64,000 bases of DNA, from assembly GCF_028994805.1 (NCBI RefSeq), contig NZ_JAJQQP010000001.1:186001-250000 (forward strand), given 5' to 3'. Of this stretch, positions 50,728-61,794 are shown piece by piece (within the stretch, counting starts at the first letter, position 1; every line of letters starts with the position of its first letter). The notes below the pieces were generated by a model. The model saw only the letters and a list, made by a program, of their open reading frames with translations, searched no databases and was not told the origin of the DNA. The DNA comes from Promicromonospora iranensis. GTDB taxonomy: Bacteria; Actinomycetota; Actinomycetes; Actinomycetales; Cellulomonadaceae. A program made the position numbers and the translations under genes.

Positions 50728-52407
50728 TCAGTCCCCGACGGAGTAGGACAGCCAGTCGCCGGCCATGTTCATCCCGACCCGCACGCCCTGGTAGCCGCCC
50801 GCCCTCTGGGCGTCCGCCTCCTCGGCGGTGAGCAGGCCCGCAGCCACGACCTCGGCCCAGGCCTCGTTCGAGTCACGGAACTCGTCGGCAGCCACCCGGG
50901 GCCAGACGACGGTCGCATCAGCGCTGCCCTCGTCCACGATCACCGCCCGGGTGTCGGTCAGGACGGCGGCGAGCTCCCGGTAGCGTCCCGCGTCGGGTTC
51001 AGGCAGGGCGAAGACCTGCTCCGGGGTCCCGCCGCCGTCCAGGCTCTCGGTCCTCGACTCCTTCACCAGGGCGACCAACGCCTCGATGTCGCAGTCCATC
51101 GCCGCGATCACGATGGACCCGGCAGTCGCCGAGGTGCTCCCGGTCACCGAGTTCCCCGGTACGTACTTCGGTTCGAACCCGGTCGACGAACACTCCGGCC
51201 CGCCGTCTCCGCCGATGGGCGTCGCCGGCTCGAGGGACACCCAGAGCCGCGTGACGCCGTCGGGCACGCTCGGCAGCCGGATATCGATGACCTCGCCGCC
51301 ACCGTCGAGCCCGGTAAGGTCCGCCCCCGCCTCGTTCCCGTCGCAGGAGATCTGGGTGGTCCCGACCACCTTGGCGGTGGAGGGCTGCACGAGCTCGATC
51401 GGGAGCACGGCCTCCGGGTCCGGACCCTCGCACTGTCCGATGACTCGCATCGGGGTGTCCGAGGAGTAGCCGCGCTGTGTCATCTCCGCCGTCACCCAGT
51501 CCGTGGTGCGGTCCAGCTCGAAGCGCGAGACCTGACCCTCGGCCGGCTCCGGGAACGCGATGGTCGAGTCCCCGGGCGCCGCACCCGGGCTGTGCGCGCC
51601 GTCGGCGTCGACCCGGACCGGGACCGGCTCGCTCACTGCCGTCGCCCGTGTGCCCAAGGCGACCTCCGGGAAGGCGACGACCCGTACCTCGTAGTCTCCC
51701 TCGGGCAGTGTCGCTTCGTAGACCGGATCGAGATCGGTGGATGTCGGCGAGCACGTCGACGCGGAGGCGCCCGCGGCCGCGACGGCACCCGGGCCGCCGC
51801 CAAGGAGCGGCTCGGACTGCTCGCCCGGTGTCTCGAAGACGTTCGGGCCCAGGTCCAGCACCACACCGTCGCGGCTCCACACCAGGACGGGCGCGACATC
51901 GAGCGAACCTTGGCCCTTCTCGAGCGTCGACGCCATGCCCCACGACGTCGCTGCAGGGTCCTCGAGGTCCGCCGTCCGCCCGTAGATGTCGCCCGACGAC
52001 GTCACCGACCAACCCGGCGCCGTCGTCTCCAGGTCGGTCACCGGCATGCCGCACGTCAGGTCGCTCCAGTCGAGCCATGGCGGCTGATAGCCGTCCTGGA
52101 GCCGGAAGTCCGACGCGGGCGACGACTCCCCAGGCAGCAGCTCGGATGGCTGCGACGGCGCGAGCTGCCCCGCCCCGAGCACCAGCGCACCGGCCAGGGC
52201 GAGCGCGCCACCGCCAAGCCCGCCGAGCTTCGCCGTCCGACGCCGCCGCACCCGCCTGCTCATCGCCGTCATGGCCGCGGCGGGCCCGGTCGGCGACGCG
52301 GGGTCCACGCCGTCGGCCATCGCACCGAAGGTCTGCTTCAGGAGGCCGGCCTCCGCCGGGTCCGACCAGCCGTGGTCCTGGTCCCGGCCCTCGTTCTGCT
52401 GGTTCAT
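50728..52407 (-). CDS. single-pass membrane sensor partnered with ECF sigma factor (cassette A)
   Basis: A 559-residue protein, unrecognised as a named family. Cytosolic N-terminus (1-60, acidic then RRVRRRRTAK), one membrane helix (about 61-80), and about 480 extracytoplasmic residues. The outer part has a first module (CGMPVTDLETTAPGWS...GDIYGRT...LVWSRDGVVLDLGPNVFE), a beta-rich middle (LPEGDYEVRVVAFPEVA, DADGAH) and a C-terminal module (EQVFALPE...WPRVAADEFRD...AEEADAQRA). It overlaps the sigma gene by ATGA. It may restrain the sigma factor, but no zinc anti-sigma motif (HxxxCxxC) is visible. Paralogous to cassettes B and C. Confidence 0.75.
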   Translation of the reverse strand: MNQQNEGRDQDHGWSDPAEAGLLKQTFGAMADGVDPASPTGPAAAMTAMSRRVRRRRTAKLGGLGGGALALAGALVLGAGQLAPSQPSELLPGESSPASDFRLQDGYQPPWLDWSDLTCGMPVTDLETTAPGWSVTSSGDIYGRTADLEDPAATSWGMASTLEKGQGSLDVAPVLVWSRDGVVLDLGPNVFETPGEQSEPLLGGGPGAVAAAGASASTCSPTSTDLDPVYEATLPEGDYEVRVVAFPEVALGTRATAVSEPVPVRVDADGAHSPGAAPGDSTIAFPEPAEGQVSRFELDRTTDWVTAEMTQRGYSSDTPMRVIGQCEGPDPEAVLPIELVQPSTAKVVGTTQISCDGNEAGADLTGLDGGGEVIDIRLPSVPDGVTRLWVSLEPATPIGGDGGPECSSTGFEPKYVPGNSVTGSTSATAGSIVIAAMDCDIEALVALVKESRTESLDGGGTPEQVFALPEPDAGRYRELAAVLTDTRAVIVDEGSADATVVWPRVAADEFRDSNEAWAEVVAAGLLTAEEADAQRAGGYQGVRVGMNMAGDWLSYSVGD

Positions 52408-53030
52408 CGCCGTGCTCCCTCTGTCGTGGCCGATCCGGCCGGTCCTGTCGTGGCCGATCCGGCCGGATCCAGCACGTCCCGCAGGACGTGCAGCGCGTCA
52501 TGGAGATGGCGCTTGACGGTGCCCGGAGCGTTCCCGAGCGTCTCCGCCACCTGGTCGATGGTCATGTCCTCGAAGTAGCGCAGCACCACGCACGCGCGCT
52601 GCCGCGGCGAGAGACGGGAGAGCGCCTGCACCACGTCCGCGCGGGCGGTGACGCCCGAGTCGGGGAACCGCACGTGGTCGTCCGTGGCGATCCTGGGCTC
52701 GATGTCCGCCCACCTCTTGCGGCGGCGCCAGCCGTCCAGGTACAGGTTCAGCACCATGCGGCGCACGTATGCCTCGGCGTACTCCACGGCCCGCCGCTCG
52801 GGGGGACCCCCCGGACGGTCTCGCGGTCCGTCCAACGGCACGGTGCGCATGCCCGACGCCGCGGCGCCGCGTCGACCACCCGGCCGCACCAGGCGGGAGC
52901 AGTACTTGACCAACGCCTCCTGCACCAGGTCCTCGGCCTGCCGGACATCGCCGCACAACGCGTACGCGTACCCGACGAGCACGCCGCCACGCTCTGCGGC
53001 AAGCAACTCCAGGTCTTCGTGCCAGCCCAT
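52404..53030 (-). CDS. ECF sigma factor, SigE-like family (cassette A)
   Basis: A 208-residue extracytoplasmic-function sigma factor. Sigma-2 region about 17-105 (GYAYALCGDVRQAEDLVQEALVKYCSRL...YVRRMVLNLYLDGWRRRKR), interrupted by a 30-residue Gly/Arg/Pro loop. Sigma-4 about 138-185 (LSPRQRACVVLRYFEDMTIDQVAETLG). The ATG at 53030 has AAGGAG 7 nt upstream; the open frame extends 38 codons further. Followed by its membrane partner with ATGA overlap. A CCAAC-N17-CGTC element lies 33 bp upstream. Confidence 0.92.
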   Translation of the reverse strand: MGWHEDLELLAAERGGVLVGYAYALCGDVRQAEDLVQEALVKYCSRLVRPGGRRGAAASGMRTVPLDGPRDRPGGPPERRAVEYAEAYVRRMVLNLYLDGWRRRKRWADIEPRIATDDHVRFPDSGVTARADVVQALSRLSPRQRACVVLRYFEDMTIDQVAETLGNAPGTVKRHLHDALHVLRDVLDPAGSATTGPAGSATTEGARR

Positions 53031-53339
53031 TGCCGGCTCCTTCCTGCTGTCCTGACCGTATCGACGAACCAACGGGCCGCCAGGTTGGGGCAGATCGCCA
53101 TCGGGTTCCGAACCCCCCGCCCGAGCTGACGGAGCTTCGCCCATGAGCCGGCCAGGTGACGCCGACGCTGACTGTCGTTCAGCAGGCGTCGGACAGCCGT
53201 TGTCGGATGAGTTGTGGCTCTTCCAAGCCTGCTGAACACCGGTCAGCGCACGGGAGCGGAGGGCCGGAATTGCTGCGGGCGGTCGCAGCGCATTGCCGGC
53301 GCGCTTCTGGTGTGGGGGGCAGGCGGGTCAGGATGGGGC
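53031..53339. other. divergent intergenic region between sigma A and the MpaB-like gene
   Basis: 309 bp without a gene. Besides the candidate ECF promoter it contains a perfect 10-bp inverted repeat TTCAGCAGGC (53178-53187) and GCCTGCTGAA (53227-53236), spaced 39 bp, in front of the rightward gene. No other structure is evident. Confidence 0.5.
53063..53088 (-). promoter_or_regulatory. candidate ECF-type promoter of cassette A
   Basis: On the minus strand, CCAAC (53088-53084), 17 bp, CGTC (53066-53063), 33 bp before the sigma start. The same CCAAC-N17-CGTC pattern precedes cassette B. It resembles the AAC/CGTC promoters of SigE-like ECF factors and suggests autoregulation. Confidence 0.4.
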
Positions 53340-54854
53340 ATGGTGCCTGGGCATGCAGCGAACGACGTCGGCCGGTCGCCCGTGCCGGCGTACCCCCGCC
53401 GGTTCCGCTCCGCCGAGGCGCGCGGGGCACGGATCGGCCGGCCGCTGCGCCTGTTCGGGCGTGCGGGCGACGTGGACGAGGCGCTCCTGGACCGGATCGG
53501 CCGCGCGTTCTTCGAGGAGGACGCCGCCGGGGCGGCGCTCGCTGCCGCGATGCGGCTACCTGCGGGGACGCCGGGGCGGGTGACCCACGCACAGCTCCGG
53601 GCGGCGCTGGCGGGTCCGGCTGCGGGTGCGGGGGACCTGAGGGGTGCCGAAGACCCGAGGGGCGCCGGGGATCTGAGGGGTGCCGGTGATCTGAGGGGCG
53701 CCGGTGACCGTGAGATCGGACCGTCGCTCAGCCCGGACGCCGAGATCGGTCCCTTGCACCGTCGCACCACCGAGATCGGTCCCTTGCTTCGAGATCGGTC
53801 ATTCAACCGACCGATCTCGAAGCAAGGGACCGAACTCAGTACGAGACGTGTGCACAGGACCGAACCCGGCACCGACCTGCCCGAGGCGCTGCGCCGGTTC
53901 CTCGACGAGGTCACCAGCGTGCCCGACTGGGTGGACTGGGACCTGGTCGAGGAGGGTGCCGCGGTGCAGCGGAGGCTCGGACAGAACGCGGGCGACGTGC
54001 TGCTCCAGCTCTCGCTCGTCGGCGGGTACCGGTTCGGCGGGCCGACGGACCTGCTCGCGGCGACCGGCGCCCTGACCGGCGGGACACTGCGTCGCCTCGC
54101 GGAGACCCAGGAGTGGACGGTCGGGCTGTCCGAGCCGGGGGCGCTCCGGCCCTTCGCCTCCGCGTGGCGGGCCACCGCGCACGTGCGGGCGATGCATGCG
54201 CTGGTCAGCGCGTCGTTCGCCGACCCGGCCACCGGCAGGGGCGGGCGAGGCGCCGAGCCGTGGGACACCGCGCGCTGGGGCCTGCCGATCAACCAGGCGG
54301 ACCAGGCGGCGACGCTCGGGCTGTTCGACGGCACCCTGATCCTCGGGTGCCGAGCGCTCGGGGTGCGCATCCCGCCGTCGGACAGCCAGGCCCTGATGCA
54401 CCTGTGGAAGTGGGTGGGGCACCTGCTGGGGGTGCACCCGGACTTCCTCGTCGACGACGAGTGGGAGCGGCACCGCATCAGCTACCACGTGCTGCTCGCG
54501 CAGGCAGGGATCTCGGACGCCGGGCCACGCCTCGCCCGGGCGGTGGTCGCCGCGCAGGCCGACCGGACCTACCCCGGCCCGTCCTGGTGGCAGCCGTTCC
54601 GGGCGTGGTTCGAACGCGAGCGCCTGCTGTCGATGCTGACGGCGTTCCTCGGGGTGCGCAGCATGCGCGAGCTCGGCCTGCCGCTGCGCCCGCCGTGGGC
54701 GCACGCCTACCTGCTGCCGCTCAACATCTGGCGGTACCACCTGCGCGGACGCTCCCGGCAGGGCCGGGAGCGTCTTGAGCGGTGGGGCCGACGCCGGAGC
54801 GCCGCGATCCTGGCGAGCTACCTGTCGGACGCTCAGGTCACCGAGGTGGCCTGA
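53340..54854 (+). CDS. MpaB/rubber-oxygenase-like (DUF2236) protein with repeat-expanded linker
   Basis: A 504-residue protein of the oxygenase-MpaB/latex-clearing family. The helical core contains RATAHVRAMHALV (histidine likely heme ligand), and the hallmark DTARWGLPINQADQAATLGLFDG. Members are b-type heme proteins; some cleave polyisoprene, most are uncharacterised. Between the N-terminal ~95 residues and the core lies an unusual stretch (about 98-180) made of four GDLRGA-type repeats and EIGP repeats, encoded by tandem DNA repeats and a palindrome. ATG at 53340; divergent from sigma A. Confidence 0.8.
   Translation: MVPGHAANDVGRSPVPAYPRRFRSAEARGARIGRPLRLFGRAGDVDEALLDRIGRAFFEEDAAGAALAAAMRLPAGTPGRVTHAQLRAALAGPAAGAGDLRGAEDPRGAGDLRGAGDLRGAGDREIGPSLSPDAEIGPLHRRTTEIGPLLRDRSFNRPISKQGTELSTRRVHRTEPGTDLPEALRRFLDEVTSVPDWVDWDLVEEGAAVQRRLGQNAGDVLLQLSLVGGYRFGGPTDLLAATGALTGGTLRRLAETQEWTVGLSEPGALRPFASAWRATAHVRAMHALVSASFADPATGRGGRGAEPWDTARWGLPINQADQAATLGLFDGTLILGCRALGVRIPPSDSQALMHLWKWVGHLLGVHPDFLVDDEWERHRISYHVLLAQAGISDAGPRLARAVVAAQADRTYPGPSWWQPFRAWFERERLLSMLTAFLGVRSMRELGLPLRPPWAHAYLLPLNIWRYHLRGRSRQGRERLERWGRRRSAAILASYLSDAQVTEVA
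53634..53705 (+). repeat. four tandem 18-bp repeats inside the MpaB-like gene
   Basis: Units 53634-53651, 53652-53669, 53670-53687 and 53688-53705 follow GAyCtGAGGGGyGCCGgt with small variation. They are in frame and encode the peptides GDLRGA/EDPRGA/GDLRGA/GDLRGA. Confidence 0.85.
53777..53832. repeat. perfect 24-bp palindrome inside the MpaB-like gene
   Basis: Left arm 53777-53800 starts CGGTCCCTTGCTTCGAGATC; right arm 53809-53832 is its exact reverse complement; loop 8 nt. A shorter direct copy of GAGATCGGTCCCTTG lies at about 53742-53756. The reading frame passes through without a stop. Confidence 0.88.
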
Positions 54855-54866: not shown

Positions 54867-56606
54867 TCAGGGAGAGGCGGGCGAGTAGTACCGCCAGGTG
54901 CCTGCCCGGTCGATGGCGAGCGTCATCCCCGTGTAACCGAACGTCTCGTCGGCTCGCTGTGCCTCGGCCTCCGCCTGCGTGAGCAGGCCCGACTCCACGA
55001 CCTCGGCCCACGCCTCGTCCGAGTCGCGGAACTCCTCGGTCGCGACCCGCGGCCACGTGATCGTCTCGTTCCCGGGGTCCCCGCCGTCGGCGGCGCCGGT
55101 GGTACCCACGAGCAGGCGGACGATCGTCTCGTACGGCAACGCGTCGTTCTCGGGAAGGCCGAAGACCTGCTCCGGGGTCTCGACGCTGAACATGAGCTCC
55201 GTGCCGTCGTCCGTCGCGAGCTGGATCAGCCGTTCGGAATCACAGGCCCGCGCGGCATCCACGATGGCCTGTGCGGCCGCCCCGGCTGCCTCGGTCGGCG
55301 CGTTCGCGGGGTCGTACTCCATGTCGAGGCTTCTCGCGGAGCACTCGCCCGCGACGTCACCGCGGGCGCTGTCGCCCGGGGCGAGGACCGCCCAGAAGCG
55401 TGCGACACCGTCGGGAACGTCCGTCAGGCGGATGTCCACCGCCTCCTCGCCACCGCCGACCACGGGCTCCGACTGGAATGGGGAACCGTCGCACGGCACC
55501 TCGCCGGACCGGAGGTCCTCTCCGGAGCTCGTTGCCAGCTCGTAGCGCACCGTGTCCGTCGGGTCGGAGCTCTCGCACTCCGCGGTGACCGACGGCGTGC
55601 CGGTCGTCACGTACCCGCGCTGCGTCAGCTCCGCGGTGACCCGGTCCGTGCTCCGGTCGAGCACGAACCGGGAGAGCTCGCCCTCGGCGGGCTCCGGCGG
55701 CTCGATCGTCGCGTCGTCGCCGCGCGTACCCGTCGCCGTGTGCGCGCCGTCGGCGTCGAGGCGGACCGAGACCGGTGCGCTCACCGCCGTCGCCCACTGG
55801 CCGGACGCGACCTGCGGGAAGGCGACCACGTGTACCTCGTAGTCGCCCTCGGGCAGCGGCGTCTGGAAGATCTGTCCGGCGTCGCCGTCGGTCGGCGCGC
55901 ACGTCGTGAACGCACCCCCCTGCGCCTCGCTGACGTCACCGGTCTCGGAGCTGAGCAGCGGCGCGCTCTGGACGGACCCCTCGAAGACGTTCGGTCCCAG
56001 GTCCACCACCACACCGTCCTGGCTCCACACCAGCACCGGGGAAGCGTCGAGCGTTCCTTCGCTACCCGAGACGAGCGCTGACATACCCCAGCTCGTCGAG
56101 GGGGTGCCGTCCAGGTCGAAGGTCCGCGCGTAGATGTCACCGGCCGACGCCGCCGACCACCCGGTCGCCGTCGTCTCCAGGTCCGCGACGGCCATGCCGC
56201 ACTCCAGCCCGGCCTCCAGGTCCCGGATCCAGGAGGGCTGGTACCTGTCCTGGATGACACTGGTCGCCGGCGGCCCCGTCGGGCCTGGCTCCGGCGTCTG
56301 CGTCGCGGCCCCGCTCGGAGAAGAGGAGGCGGACGCACTCTCGGACTGCCCCGGCAGCACCGGCTCGCGGTCCAGCAGCGGAGTCTGGGTAGCGCCGAAG
56401 GCCAGCACGCCCACCAGGGCGAGGCTCGCGCCGGTGAGACCGCCGATCTTGGCGACACGGCGGCGCCGCACGCGGTCACGCACCACTCCGAATGAGACGT
56501 GCAGGTCGTCCACCTCCCCGCCGGGCATCGTGTCGGCGGCGCCGCGGAGCGCGCCGCTCAGGAAGTCGTTGTCGTCGTGTCCGCTGTCGTTCCGGTCGGT
56601 GTTCAT
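54867..56606 (-). CDS. single-pass membrane sensor partnered with ECF sigma factor (cassette B)
   Basis: A 579-residue paralogue of the cassette A sensor. Acidic cytosolic N-terminus, the same basic juxtamembrane motif (RDRVRRRRVAK), a membrane helix at about 53-72, a Ser/Pro-rich stalk, then the same order of outer modules: ECGMAVADLETTATGWS...GDIYART, LVWSQDGVVVDLGPNVFE, LPEGDYEVHVVAFPQVA, DADGAH, and the C-terminal EQVFGLPE...ITWPRVATEEFRD...EAEAQRA block. Overlaps its sigma gene as ATGA. Role as anti-sigma or signal receptor is inferred from coupling only. Confidence 0.75.
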   Translation of the reverse strand: MNTDRNDSGHDDNDFLSGALRGAADTMPGGEVDDLHVSFGVVRDRVRRRRVAKIGGLTGASLALVGVLAFGATQTPLLDREPVLPGQSESASASSSPSGAATQTPEPGPTGPPATSVIQDRYQPSWIRDLEAGLECGMAVADLETTATGWSAASAGDIYARTFDLDGTPSTSWGMSALVSGSEGTLDASPVLVWSQDGVVVDLGPNVFEGSVQSAPLLSSETGDVSEAQGGAFTTCAPTDGDAGQIFQTPLPEGDYEVHVVAFPQVASGQWATAVSAPVSVRLDADGAHTATGTRGDDATIEPPEPAEGELSRFVLDRSTDRVTAELTQRGYVTTGTPSVTAECESSDPTDTVRYELATSSGEDLRSGEVPCDGSPFQSEPVVGGGEEAVDIRLTDVPDGVARFWAVLAPGDSARGDVAGECSARSLDMEYDPANAPTEAAGAAAQAIVDAARACDSERLIQLATDDGTELMFSVETPEQVFGLPENDALPYETIVRLLVGTTGAADGGDPGNETITWPRVATEEFRDSDEAWAEVVESGLLTQAEAEAQRADETFGYTGMTLAIDRAGTWRYYSPASP

Positions 56607-57181
56607 CGGGCGGCCCTCCCTTCGGCAGGTCGGAAGTCGTCGGGGCGCAGGAACTCCTGCATGTTCTTGGTGGCATCCGACAGGTAGCGCTTGACCGTTC
56701 CCTGGGCGGTGCCCAGGGCGTCCGCAATCTGCGGCACCGTCATGTCCTCGAAGTAGCGGAGCACCACGCAGGCCCGCTCGCGAGCGCCGAGCCGGGCGAG
56801 CGCCGCCATGACGTCGACCCGGGCCGAGGCGGCCTGGTCGGCGCCCCGGGTGCTGGGGTCGTCAGCCAGCAGGTGCTTGATCCCCGTCCAGCGCTGCCGC
56901 TTGCGGTAGCCGTCCAGGTAGATGGTCAGCACCGCACGCCGCACGTAGCCCTCGGCGTTCGTGAACGGTGAGTCGAGGTCGTGCGCCCGGCTGCCCTCGG
57001 CCACGCCCACCGCCCCGGAGACGGCGGGGCGGCCGCGGAGCCGCGAGTAGACCTTGACCAGCGCGTCCTGGACCAGGTCCTCGGCGAGCGCTCGGTCGCC
57101 CGAGAGCATGTAGGCATAGCGGACGAGCGCGCCGCCGCGCACTCGCATGAGCTCATCGAGCTCCTGCTCCCATCCCGCCAT
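56603..57181 (-). CDS. ECF sigma factor, SigE-like family (cassette B)
   Basis: A 192-residue ECF sigma factor. Sigma-2 about 18-92 (VRYAYMLSGDRALAEDLVQDALVKVYSRL...EGYVRRAVLTIYLDGYRKR). Sigma-4 about 127-175 (LGARERACVVLRYFEDMTVPQIADALG). The ATG at 57181 has GGGAGG 5 nt upstream and beats an in-frame GTG two codons earlier. The sigma parts of B and C are the most alike of the three. Preceded by the same CCAAC-N17-CGTC element as cassette A. Confidence 0.92.
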   Translation of the reverse strand: MAGWEQELDELMRVRGGALVRYAYMLSGDRALAEDLVQDALVKVYSRLRGRPAVSGAVGVAEGSRAHDLDSPFTNAEGYVRRAVLTIYLDGYRKRQRWTGIKHLLADDPSTRGADQAASARVDVMAALARLGARERACVVLRYFEDMTVPQIADALGTAQGTVKRYLSDATKNMQEFLRPDDFRPAEGRAAR

Positions 57182-57230
57182 GACCACCTCCCGGGGGTGT
57201 GTGTGCTGTCATCGTCTCCACATCCACCAT

Positions 57231-57256
57231 GACGCGCCGTGGGAGGGTTTCGTTGG
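57231..57256 (-). promoter_or_regulatory. candidate ECF-type promoter of cassette B
   Basis: CCAAC (57256-57252), 17 bp, CGTC (57234-57231) on the minus strand, inside the 85-bp gap after the fused gene and 50 bp before the sigma B start. It would let cassette B be expressed apart from the fused gene. Confidence 0.4.
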
Positions 57257-57266
57257 TCAGGACGTC

Positions 57267-59117
57267 TCACAGGTCGGCGCACTCCGGAGGCGGTTCGCGG
57301 TACGCGCTGTTGCAACTTGGGTCATATCCCTCGTAGAAGGTCTCCCAGGTGTGCCCCTCCCCCATTCCGGGGTCCTGGATGCTCAGCTGCCATCCGCTGT
57401 ACCTACCGGCAGCACGATCGGCGTCGGCCTGCGCCGAGCTGACGGCCCCGGCGTCGATCGCTTCCTGCCATGCGGTCTCGCTCTTGAGGAAGGTGGTCAC
57501 CCGAGGCCACGTCCCGGAACCCCCGTCGTACGAGTTGACCGGTTGGGTCTCGGTCAGGAGCCGCGCGATCGTCGCGTAGGGCGTGCGGCCACCGGTCTCC
57601 GGGAGTGCGAACACCTCGTTGACCGATCGCACCTCCGTCTGGAACGTGGACGCCGTGTCGAAGACGTTGCCGGCCAGCTCCACGACCAGACGCTCGTCGC
57701 AGGTGGTGACCGCCTCGAGAAGTCGCGCAGCCGTGTCCCGCACCCCAGCCGGGGCTCCTGGCGCGACCAGCTCCCGCCCGGCGTACGCGGCCCCGCTGCA
57801 GTCGTCGGACGGCGGCGCGAACTCCGGCGGCGGTGCCACGCCGCTGTCCAGATCGACGGTGACCGGGTCGCTGACGAGCAGGCGCCGATCGTCGAGTTCC
57901 GGATCGTCGCCCGTGTGCGGGTCGGCGACGATCACCATCAGCTCGTACCGCCCGCCCGCGCGTTCGTTGTCGTAGTAGCTGCTGGGAACGTCCGCCGTAC
58001 CCACCAAGGTGTCCGCGCGGCAGGTGGACGCGTTCCCGGTAGAGGCGAGCCCGGTCCAGGTGCCGTGCTCGACGAGCTCCGGAGGTGCCTCGTCGTTGGC
58101 CGCCTCCCGCCAGTAGTCCGGGAGATCGACGATCCGACCCTCGTGGGTCCAGACGATCAAGGGCCAGGTCATGTAGCCGGAACTCTCGTCGAACATGCCG
58201 TCCGGCACCTCGCCGGAGATCGTCACCGGCAGGCTCCAGAACGCGGTGGTCCCCTGCGGGTCGGGAACAAGGTCACCGGCGATCTCGACGTCCAACGTGC
58301 CCGTGTCCATCGCCTCCAGCTCCTCGACCGGCATACCGCAGTAGATCCCGACGTCCTCGTGCCAGCTGGCCGGCACGTACCCCGGCGTGTACTCGATCTT
58401 GTCCTCGGCGGGCAGCGGCTCCGACCGGATCCAGGGCTTGACCGAGAACGCGCCCCACGCCAGCACCACCGCCAGCACCATCGACATGCCGGCCACGGCA
58501 CCCACCTTCGCCGTCCGACGGCGACGCACGGCGCCCGCCACCGCGTCCAGCCGCTCGTCCAGGGCGGTGTCCACGTCCGGCGTCACGATCTCCGCGAGCG
58601 ACACGCGCAGCAGCTCCATCGCGTCCGACAGGTACCGCTTGATGGTGCCCGGCCGGGTTCCGAGCGCGGTCGCGATCTGCGGCACCGTCATGTCCTCGAA
58701 GAAGCGCAGCACCACCGCCTCGCGCTGGCGGGTGGAGAGCTGGGCGAGCGCCACGCCGACGTCGACCCGCGCGGTGGCCACGCGGTCCGCACCGGGCGAC
58801 AGCTCGTCGTCGGCCAGGAGGTGCTTGAGGCCGGACCAGTGGTTCTGCCGCCGGTAACCGTCCAGGTAGATCGTCAGGATCGCCCGCCGGACGTACCCTT
58901 CGGCATTGGTCACCTGCGGCTGGTCCAGGTCCACGACGTGCTGCCCGCCGTCGGCGCTGCCGTGCGGACGCCGCAGGCGCGAGAACACCTTCACCAGGGC
59001 GTCCTGCACCAGGTCCTCCGCCCGTGCCCGGTCCCGGCACAACGAGTACGCGTACCCGACGAGCGCCCCGCCACGGCTTGTCGCGAGCTCCGTGAGCTCG
59101 GCCTCCCACTGCGCCAT
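57267..59117 (-). CDS. fused ECF sigma factor and membrane sensor in one polypeptide (cassette C)
   Basis: A 616-residue protein. Residues 1-175 are a complete ECF sigma factor: sigma-2 about 18-92 (GYAYSLCRDRARAEDLVQDALVKVFSRL...YVRRAILTIYLDGYRRQ) and sigma-4 about 124-172 (LSTRQREAVVLRFFEDMTVPQIATALG...TIKRYLSDAMELL). After a short linker comes the basic motif GAVRRRRTAK and a membrane helix (about 205-224). The outside region has the same modules as the A and B sensors: YCGMPVEELEA..., PLIVWTHEGRIVDL, and NEVFALPE...GTWPRVTTF...AQADADRAAGRYSGW. The sigma factor is thus tethered to the membrane. ATG at 59117 behind GGAGG. No frameshift or stop separates the halves. Confidence 0.9.
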   Translation of the reverse strand: MAQWEAELTELATSRGGALVGYAYSLCRDRARAEDLVQDALVKVFSRLRRPHGSADGGQHVVDLDQPQVTNAEGYVRRAILTIYLDGYRRQNHWSGLKHLLADDELSPGADRVATARVDVGVALAQLSTRQREAVVLRFFEDMTVPQIATALGTRPGTIKRYLSDAMELLRVSLAEIVTPDVDTALDERLDAVAGAVRRRRTAKVGAVAGMSMVLAVVLAWGAFSVKPWIRSEPLPAEDKIEYTPGYVPASWHEDVGIYCGMPVEELEAMDTGTLDVEIAGDLVPDPQGTTAFWSLPVTISGEVPDGMFDESSGYMTWPLIVWTHEGRIVDLPDYWREAANDEAPPELVEHGTWTGLASTGNASTCRADTLVGTADVPSSYYDNERAGGRYELMVIVADPHTGDDPELDDRRLLVSDPVTVDLDSGVAPPPEFAPPSDDCSGAAYAGRELVAPGAPAGVRDTAARLLEAVTTCDERLVVELAGNVFDTASTFQTEVRSVNEVFALPETGGRTPYATIARLLTETQPVNSYDGGSGTWPRVTTFLKSETAWQEAIDAGAVSSAQADADRAAGRYSGWQLSIQDPGMGEGHTWETFYEGYDPSCNSAYREPPPECADL

Positions 59118-59168
59118 CGAAGCGCCTCCTCTCCCCTGCTCATGCTCCCTGACGGACAGGAGGAGGAA

Positions 59169-59196
59169 AACGATGCGTTCGATCGCGAGAAAGTTC
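59169..59196 (-). promoter_or_regulatory. candidate ECF-type promoter of the fused gene
   Basis: GAACTTT (59196-59190), 17 bp, CGTT (59172-59169) on the minus strand, 52 bp before the start. It resembles general ECF promoters but differs in spacing and -10 from the A and B elements. Confidence 0.3.
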
Positions 59197-59831: not shown

Positions 59832-61007
59832 TCAGGCCAGCTCGATGCGGTAGCCCCGCTTCACGACCGTGCGGATCAGGTCGCGGCGTCCCGCCGCCTC
59901 GCGCAGCCTGGCGATGGCGACCTCGGCGGCGTGCGTGTCCTGCGAGTCACCCGGCAGCGCGGCGAGCACCTGCTCGCGCGGCACGACGTCACCCTCGGCC
60001 GCGGCGAGCAGCCGCAGCACCGCGACGCCCGTCGGCGACAGGGGCAGCACCTTCCCGTCCAGCACCGCCACGCGTGCCCGGATCACCAGCGACCCGGCGA
60101 CGGTGCTCAGCGCCACGGAGTCGATGTGCTCGTAGTGGCCCACCAGCGCGCGGACGAGCGCCCCGAGCCGGCCGCGCTCGGGCTGCAGGGGCACGATCCC
60201 CCGGCTCTCCAGCGGCTTCGCCGTCACGGGTCCGACAGCGGCCGCGACCGTCCCGCCCTCGACGAACCGGGCTCGGACACGGTCGAGCAGCCGCTCCTCC
60301 TCGACGGTCCGCAGCCAGGCCTCGGCGCCGGGGGCGGAGGTGAACACGACGGCATCGATCTCGCCGTCCGCCAGCGCGTGCACCGAGGCGCGCACCGCTG
60401 CCGGGTCGGGCGCCGGTCCCCAGCGGTAGACGACGAGGCTGGCGACCTGGGCGCCCGCCTTCTCGAAGACCTCGTCCAGACCGTCGGCGCCCGCGCCGTG
60501 GTGCTGGATGGCGATGCGCAACCCCTGCACACCCTCGCTGAGCAGCACCTCCGCCACCTCGGCGGACGTCTCGGACTCGGCGACCCAGTCGGCCTGCAGG
60601 CCAGCGGCCTGGATCGCGCCGCGGGCCTTCGGGCCGCGCGCCACGATCCGGGTCTTGCGCAGCAGGTCGAGGAGCGGCTCCGCGAGGCCGTGCGCGTCAG
60701 CCGCCTCGATCCAGGCGCGGAAGCCGATCCCGGTGGTGACCACGACGACGTCGGGCGGGGCGGAGAAGATCGCGCGCGTCGCGGCGATCAGGGTCTCGTC
60801 GTCGACGTGCGGGATCATGCTCAGTGCGGGCGCGTGCCGGATGGTCGCGCCGCGCCGTTCCAGCGCCGCCGCGAGCTCGGCGGCCCGGCGCTCTGCGGTG
60901 ACGAGAACCGTCGCCCCGGCCATGACCTGGCCCAGAGTCGGGTGGGTCGCCTGGGCGTGCGCAGGCGCTGCGACATCAGACACCGGCACCTGCCAGACGT
61001 CGCTCAC
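59832..61007 (-). CDS. hemD: uroporphyrinogen-III synthase fused to a winged-helix DNA-binding domain
   Basis: A 391-residue fusion. Residues about 30-280 form a HemD-type domain (GATVLVTAERRAAEL, VVTTGIGFRAW, VFTSAPGAEAWL, AAVGPVTAKPLESRG). Residues about 295-391 form an OmpR-type winged helix (LSPTGVAVLRLLAAAEGDVVPREQVLAAL...TVVKRGYRIE). Such fusions are known in actinobacteria, in nitrite/nitrate assimilation loci, and may regulate as well as, or instead of, making uroporphyrinogen III. The GTG at 61007 has GGAGG 6 nt upstream and lies inside the SUMT gene, giving a 32-bp overlap. Confidence 0.88.
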   Translation of the reverse strand: MSDVWQVPVSDVAAPAHAQATHPTLGQVMAGATVLVTAERRAAELAAALERRGATIRHAPALSMIPHVDDETLIAATRAIFSAPPDVVVVTTGIGFRAWIEAADAHGLAEPLLDLLRKTRIVARGPKARGAIQAAGLQADWVAESETSAEVAEVLLSEGVQGLRIAIQHHGAGADGLDEVFEKAGAQVASLVVYRWGPAPDPAAVRASVHALADGEIDAVVFTSAPGAEAWLRTVEEERLLDRVRARFVEGGTVAAAVGPVTAKPLESRGIVPLQPERGRLGALVRALVGHYEHIDSVALSTVAGSLVIRARVAVLDGKVLPLSPTGVAVLRLLAAAEGDVVPREQVLAALPGDSQDTHAAEVAIARLREAAGRRDLIRTVVKRGYRIELA

Positions 61008-61794
61008 TCGTACCCTCCACCGTTCCGACCAGGAGTCCTTCCGCTGCCACACGGCCGATCACGACGACCGCCGGTGACCGCACCCCGCGAACCGCTGCCA
61101 CACCGGCTGCCTCGTCGAGACGCGCCCGGGTGACACGCTGCTCCGCGGTGGAACCGTTCTCCACGATCGCCACCGGGGTTGCGGGATCGGCGCCTGCGGC
61201 CAGGGACTGCGCCACGATCGCGCCGAGGGACCGCACCCCCATCAGTACGACAAGAGTAGCCGTGGCATCACGCACGCAGGCCACGGCGGCGGCGTCGAGC
61301 GGTTCGGGCCGGTCAGCCGCGCCGTCCGACCCCGCGGCGCAGTGACCGGAGACGACGTGGAAACCCGTGGTGACCCCACGGTGCGTGAGCGGGATACCGG
61401 CCAGGCCGGGCACGGCGACGGCAGACGTCACGCCGGGCACCACCTCCACCGGCACGCCTGCCGCCACGCACGCGATGACCTCCTCGCCGCCCCTGCCGAG
61501 CACGAACGGGTCGCCGCCCTTGAGCCGCACCACGTGCGCGCCGGTCAGGGCGTGCTCCACGAGCAGCTCGTTGATGCTCTCCTGCGGCACGGGGTGCCGG
61601 CCGGGCTCCTTGCCGACGTCGACCACGCGGACGTGCGGAGGCAGCTCGGCGAGGATCTCGACGGGACCCAGCCGGTCCGCGACCACGACGTCCGCCGACT
61701 GCAGCGCACGCCATGCCCGCACGGTCAGGAGGTCCACCGCCCCGGGCCCACCCCCGACGAGCGTCACCCGCCCCTTCGTCGAGGCGGCTGTCAC
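60976..61794 (-). CDS. cobA: uroporphyrinogen-III C-methyltransferase (SUMT)
   Basis: A 272-residue enzyme making precorrin-2, the precursor of siroheme needed by NirB. Motifs: VTLVGGGPGAVDLLTVRAW (start of the SAM domain), DVGKEPGRHPVPQESINELL, VRLKGGDPFVLGRGGEE and PGVTSAVAVPGLAGIPLTHRG. No oxidase/chelatase domain is attached, so it is SUMT only. The GTG start at 61794 overlaps the nirD stop as GTGA. The role in siroheme supply is inferred from the nir operon. Confidence 0.95.
   Translation of the reverse strand: MTAASTKGRVTLVGGGPGAVDLLTVRAWRALQSADVVVADRLGPVEILAELPPHVRVVDVGKEPGRHPVPQESINELLVEHALTGAHVVRLKGGDPFVLGRGGEEVIACVAAGVPVEVVPGVTSAVAVPGLAGIPLTHRGVTTGFHVVSGHCAAGSDGAADRPEPLDAAAVACVRDATATLVVLMGVRSLGAIVAQSLAAGADPATPVAIVENGSTAEQRVTRARLDEAAGVAAVRGVRSPAVVVIGRVAAEGLLVGTVEGTSERRLAGAGV

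Follow-up and report, generated by a model that had tools for sequence, protein, structure and literature searches.

The window analysed here, a stretch of 64,000 nucleotides from the 5.84 Mb genome of Promicromonospora iranensis, contains a reading frame that joins an ECF sigma factor, a transmembrane helix and a long extracytoplasmic region in one predicted polypeptide. Beside it lie two further sigma factor genes, each followed by a separate gene for a transmembrane partner. The features relevant to this locus are listed below, with promoters assigned to the fusion and split genes putatively, by motif only.

57267..59117, minus strand: sigma-transmembrane-ectodomain fusion gene, 616 aa (ATG at 59117, stop codon at 57267-57269)
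58590..59117, minus strand: ECF sigma domain of the fusion, residues 1-176, regions 2 and 4 (Pfam PF04542, PF04545 and PF08281 above cut-off)
58506..58589, minus strand: cytoplasmic juxtamembrane linker, residues 177-204 (28 residues), ending in VRRRRTAK (from pairwise identity)
58440..58505, minus strand: transmembrane helix, residues ~205-226 (hydropathy peak; predicted helix, low confidence)
57270..58439, minus strand: extracytoplasmic region, residues 227-616 (~390 residues; AlphaFold model, conserved Cys, no Pfam family)
59149..59175, minus strand: putative ECF-type promoter motif of the fusion, CATCGTT-N14-CGTCAG, 58 nt upstream of the ATG
56603..57187, minus strand: neighbouring split sigma factor (probable start ATG 57181)
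54867..56606, minus strand: transmembrane partner of this split sigma factor, 579 aa (ATGA overlap at 56603-56606; VRRRRxAK-transmembrane junction as in the fusion)
57229..57255, minus strand: putative promoter motif of the split sigma factor at 56603..57187, CAACGAA-N14-CGTCAT
52404..53144, minus strand: second split sigma factor (probable start ATG 53030)
50728..52407, minus strand: transmembrane partner of the second split sigma factor, 559 aa (ATGA overlap at 52404-52407)
53061..53087, minus strand: promoter-like motif of the second split sigma factor, CAACCTG-N14-CGTCGA

The first-pass annotation of this locus had described one 616-residue frame with intact sigma motifs, and the frame is indeed present on the minus strand, with regions 2 and 4 but without region 3, which is the ECF layout. 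PF04542, PF04545 and PF08281 pass their gathering cut-offs in the sigma domain, as does the general sigma model TIGR02937 (54.9 bits versus a cut-off of 42.9). The best specific model was TIGR02983 (SigE family), whose score of 98.4 bits falls below the curated cut-off of 141.55 bits and thus short of membership in that family. The best PDB matches, obtained with the sequence profile and also with the whole-protein model, were SigL, SigE and SigH of M. tuberculosis. The transmembrane helix and the roughly 390 outside residues that had been proposed were likewise recovered: a hydropathy peak at residues 208-226 (mean Kyte-Doolittle value of 2.06) directly follows VRRRRTAK, a helix is predicted with low confidence at residues 208-225 of the full-length model, and the ectodomain occupies residues 227-616. 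The RRRR run before the helix and the conserved cysteines after it (Cys 260, 366 and 440, with none in the linker) fit an N-inside, C-outside orientation, which would place the sigma domain in the cytoplasm and the sensor outside. GC3 stayed between 0.85 and 0.95 from one end of the frame to the other and did not shift where the parts join.

The contrast drawn with the neighbouring genes was also borne out, as both adjoining sigma genes overlap separate transmembrane-protein genes by ATGA. This arrangement extends through the family, where nearly all split sigma genes examined have a downstream transmembrane partner and the overlap is almost always 4 nt. The split partners carry 41-53 residues before the junction motif, where it could be located, followed by R-x-R-R-x-x-K and the transmembrane helix; one subgroup has the variant RRRVRTWRxAK. 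Because the partners share the RRRRxAK-transmembrane junction, the fusion links them functionally to their sigma factors. At 28% identity to both split partners in the window, the ectodomain of the window fusion is homologous to theirs as well. Two other genes were noted in the surroundings. One (53214-54854, plus strand) is situated between the split sigma pairs and reads in the opposite direction; its product contains the PF09995 catalytic domain of MPAB/Lcp oxygenases. The other (59832-61052, minus strand), which adjoins a tetrapyrrole methylase gene and a nitrite reductase gene, encodes the uroporphyrinogen-III synthase HemD joined to a DNA-binding domain of the Trans_reg_C type.

A sequencing error hiding a stop/start pair at about 58560-58600 had been put forward as the observation that would undo this reading. 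Every one of the 13 Promicromonospora genomes searched (the genus as defined by the genome search, with the window's own genome included) has these parts fused in one frame, which excludes such an error. Each genome carries one to four copies, 26 genes in total, in the same kind of tandem array, and at least one copy per genome is full-length. The end of the sigma domain, the length of the linker and the position of the transmembrane helix are nearly constant over the 26 copies, and RRRR begins at residue 195-200 in every one of them. In a quick tree of the sigma domain, all 26 fusions formed one clade apart from the split paralogues, with an SH-aLRT support of 99 that should be taken as indicative. 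The named close relatives of the fusion all belong to Promicromonospora. A conserved internal start for a separate transmembrane protein was not seen; where other copies have a Met near residue 182, this one has Val.

Mean pairwise identity was 60% for linker residues 177-198, 81% for residues 199-204 and 32-46% for the ectodomain. The mean dN/dS over six pairs was 0.18 for the sigma domain, 0.23 for the linker (where, owing to its short length, single pairs scattered widely from 0.10 to 1.01), 0.13 for the transmembrane helix and 0.49 for the ectodomain. Values below 1 in every part indicate purifying selection on all parts of the protein, with the sensor changing fastest, and homology and dN/dS together rule out a chance open frame in high-GC DNA. 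Judged by their sequences, some array copies are decaying: two of the 26 end after the first half of the ectodomain (L060 2503-3792 and L063 2681-4099), and one further array gene is degenerate, a short frame in which a partial sigma domain is joined to the end of the ectodomain (L063 6570-7313). These copies come from two other genomes. A mosaic fusion (L064 4526-6301), which combines the sigma domain of one clade with the ectodomain and promoter type of the other, suggests recombination or domain swapping among the tandem paralogues.

To place the fusion within its class, a profile built from 18 fusions was searched against 297 genomes from 115 genera. It matched in 28 of these genomes and, apart from the window's own fusion, no match ran past the sigma domain without a stop codon. 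Long open frames around other TIGR02983 sigma factors across the class proved to be upstream extensions only. As far as sampled, the fusion thus appears to be an innovation at the level of the genus and restricted to it. Its linker aligns with the junction region of the split pairs, while the C-terminal tail of the split sigma factor and the first residues of the partner are missing; the simplest history would be that an ancestral sigma/partner pair lost its stop/start overlap while the reading frame was kept. Sequence supports a scenario in which an ECF sigma factor and its single-pass membrane partner merged in the Promicromonospora ancestor and were then duplicated and diversified in a tandem array.

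Other sigma-transmembrane fusions were encountered along the way. The genome of the window holds a second one, of 641 aa (L007 1345-3270, also recovered as L123; G000:C27:170579-172498); another Promicromonospora genome has a full-length relative, 46% identical, and two more have partial matches. Like the window fusion, it is a SigE-family sigma-transmembrane-ectodomain protein in a single frame and is conserved in the genus; it scores above the TIGR02983 cut-off, at 163.5 bits, but its sigma domain is only distantly related and its ectodomain is different, and it probably had a separate origin. In another genus of the family, a 500-aa sigma-transmembrane fusion (L072 3031-4533, minus strand) was the sole other fusion on the sigma tree, where it fell outside the Promicromonospora clade on a long branch. 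The ectodomain of this protein shows a weak similarity to PF14032, the extracellular sensor domain of PknH (24 bits, with a cut-off of 27).

The fusion genes are preceded by a two-box motif, located 52-60 nt ahead of the start codon. The boxes CA[AT]CG and CGT[CT]A were paired 39 times at a spacing of exactly 16 nt, and at most twice at any other spacing within 40 nt. Among the fused genes, 21 of 27 had such a pair upstream (0.015 genes expected after shuffling of the upstream regions), and among the split genes 18 of 49 did (0.04 expected). The shuffles preserve blocks of two bases rather than exact dinucleotide content. Most of the remaining upstream regions contained near variants by eye. 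The exact pattern CATCGTTN14CGTCAG had 17 matches genus-wide, 15 of them directly upstream of array fusion genes, and its reversed control had none in the genus. Additionally, the box type tracked the sigma clade, with AAC...GTTA in 7 of 8 genes of one clade and ATC...GTC in all 18 genes of the other (Fisher p = 1.2e-5, a value that overstates independence because gene and promoter are adjacent and co-inherited). These patterns support the view that every fusion copy in the array retains its own ECF-type promoter, and suggest that each fusion gene may be autoregulated through it. For a regulon beyond the array, the motif search gave no convincing second target in the window's own genome: ten one-mismatch sites were found where we estimate about seven by chance, and no gene is placed to make use of the second exact site.

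Structural modelling and domain searches addressed the remaining parts of the protein. The full-length AlphaFold model was poor (mean pLDDT of 51.8), while the ectodomain modelled by itself (57270-58433, 30 sequences) reached a mean pLDDT of 79.8 and a pTM of 0.78, with a predicted beta-rich, beta-sandwich-like first half and an alpha/beta second half. Foldseek returned no match to this model at E <= 0.001, and VIA-align returned only common beta-sandwiches for model residues 28-196 (best Z of 6.6), so no function can be read from the fold. In none of 18 fusions did Pfam detect a zinc finger (zf-HC2/ZAS) between the sigma domain and the transmembrane helix, a FecR-type domain or a recognisable anti-sigma domain of any other kind, the linker included. 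A weak helix is predicted in the linker at residues 186-196, where model confidence is below 50.

Altogether, the explanation that we favour, with reasonable though far from full confidence, is a self-amplifying envelope signalling switch made of one protein and released by proteolysis, in which a single polypeptide probably does the work that two neighbouring genes normally share. At rest, the 28-residue linker and the transmembrane helix would hold the sigma domain at the membrane, so that little of it gets to RNA polymerase. The cysteine-containing ectodomain would perceive an envelope signal, a site-1 protease would trim it, and an M50 site-2 protease would then cut in or near the transmembrane helix to free the sigma domain. 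Free sigma factor could transcribe its own gene from CATCGTT-N14-CGTCAG, and possibly others, giving positive feedback; the split neighbours would follow an equivalent scheme with a non-covalent partner. By analogy with known systems, proteolysis is the most likely mechanism of release. Genes for M50 site-2 proteases are present in the genome and also in 14 of 14 control genomes; as these proteases are near-universal, their presence is permissive and not evidence. Against this explanation count the decaying array copies, the poor full-length model and the fact that, with no anti-sigma domain found, the sequence does not reveal how the tethered sigma factor would be silenced.

One answer would be that the linker or juxtamembrane helix acts, by packing on sigma2/sigma4, as a minimal and cryptic anti-sigma element, relieved by its own conformational change or degradation. 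The predicted linker helix, a linker conservation exceeding that of the ectodomain and the short helix-like segment that the split partners keep at a similar distance before RRRR would all agree with such an element, but it matches no known anti-sigma family in sequence and the low model confidence in the linker speaks against it. We regard it as unlikely on balance; it is compatible with proteolytic release and may be part of it. A comparably doubtful proposal is that the covalent tether alone regulates the sigma factor with no anti-sigma domain at all, either through transcription from the membrane or because tether and 28-residue linker suffice to silence it. If true, the same logic would extend to the many split SigE-like sigma/transmembrane pairs without a recognised regulator.

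Transcription from the membrane, taken by itself, has slightly poorer prospects still. The uncut protein would recruit RNA polymerase at promoters near the membrane while the ectodomain switches its conformation across it, much as in the one-component membrane regulators CadC and ToxR. This would account for intact sigma motifs, for a linker conserved (60% identity) alongside the sigma domain and for the lack of any anti-sigma domain needing removal. However, the ECF precedents of like architecture are explained by proteolysis (PMC5411451, PMC8999054), and a short tether would be expected to impede core RNA polymerase binding and promoter escape. It is very improbable that tandem duplication merely left the fusions behind as decaying by-products of little function, since the two truncated copies and the degenerate one are outweighed by dN/dS below 1 in all parts, a full-length copy in every genome and retained promoters.

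The split SigE-like pairs of the window and of other genera of the family share with the fusion a homologous sigma domain, the VRRRRxAK-transmembrane junction, a related ectodomain and similar promoters, but consist of two genes with an ATGA overlap where the fusion has a single frame. As a Rosetta-stone fusion, the present protein suggests a functional partnership between many SigE-like sigma factors and the uncharacterised transmembrane proteins whose genes overlap theirs. Encoded by a single gene whose own promoter can serve as a reporter, it could also reveal how a tethered sigma factor without a recognisable anti-sigma domain is switched off and on.

The interpretation in the first-pass annotation held for the fused frame, for its topology and for the difference from the split neighbours, but its statement that a transmembrane tether carrying a sensor is much less described was too strong, as IutY (PMC5411451) and groups ECF48, ECF52 and ECF53 (PMC8999054, PMC5826349) precede it. 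IutY of P. putida (ECF243) also combines an ECF sigma factor, one transmembrane segment and a large extracytoplasmic domain in one polypeptide, and is activated by Prc and RseP through site-1/site-2 proteolysis (PMC5411451). The fusion differs in its Gram-positive host, its several tandem paralogues, the absence of an outer-membrane receptor context and the lack of a FecR-type domain in our searches. Actinobacterial ECF48, ECF52 and ECF53, with SCO4117 (ECF52) as the studied case, have C-terminally fused transmembrane anti-sigma regions with a zinc finger, for which proteolytic activation is expected (PMC8999054, PMC5826349). They share with the fusion an actinobacterial ECF sigma factor, a fused transmembrane helix and a long extracytoplasmic extension. 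They differ from it by a zinc-finger (ZAS-like) domain and, for ECF52, a further carbohydrate-binding domain, neither of which was found in the fusion; the sigma family closest to the fusion is TIGR02983 (SigE-like). Thus, with a shared layout but no detectable zinc finger or FecR-type domain, the fusion is not placed in the IutY or ECF48/52/53 groups. It arose independently of the known one-piece sigma switches, and no description of a Promicromonospora ECF fusion was found in the literature searched. What is new relative to these precedents is the lack of a detectable anti-sigma domain, the different ectodomain and the genus-wide tandem array, and the main value of the system lies in the absence of a recognisable inhibitory domain together with its link to the many split SigE-like pairs.
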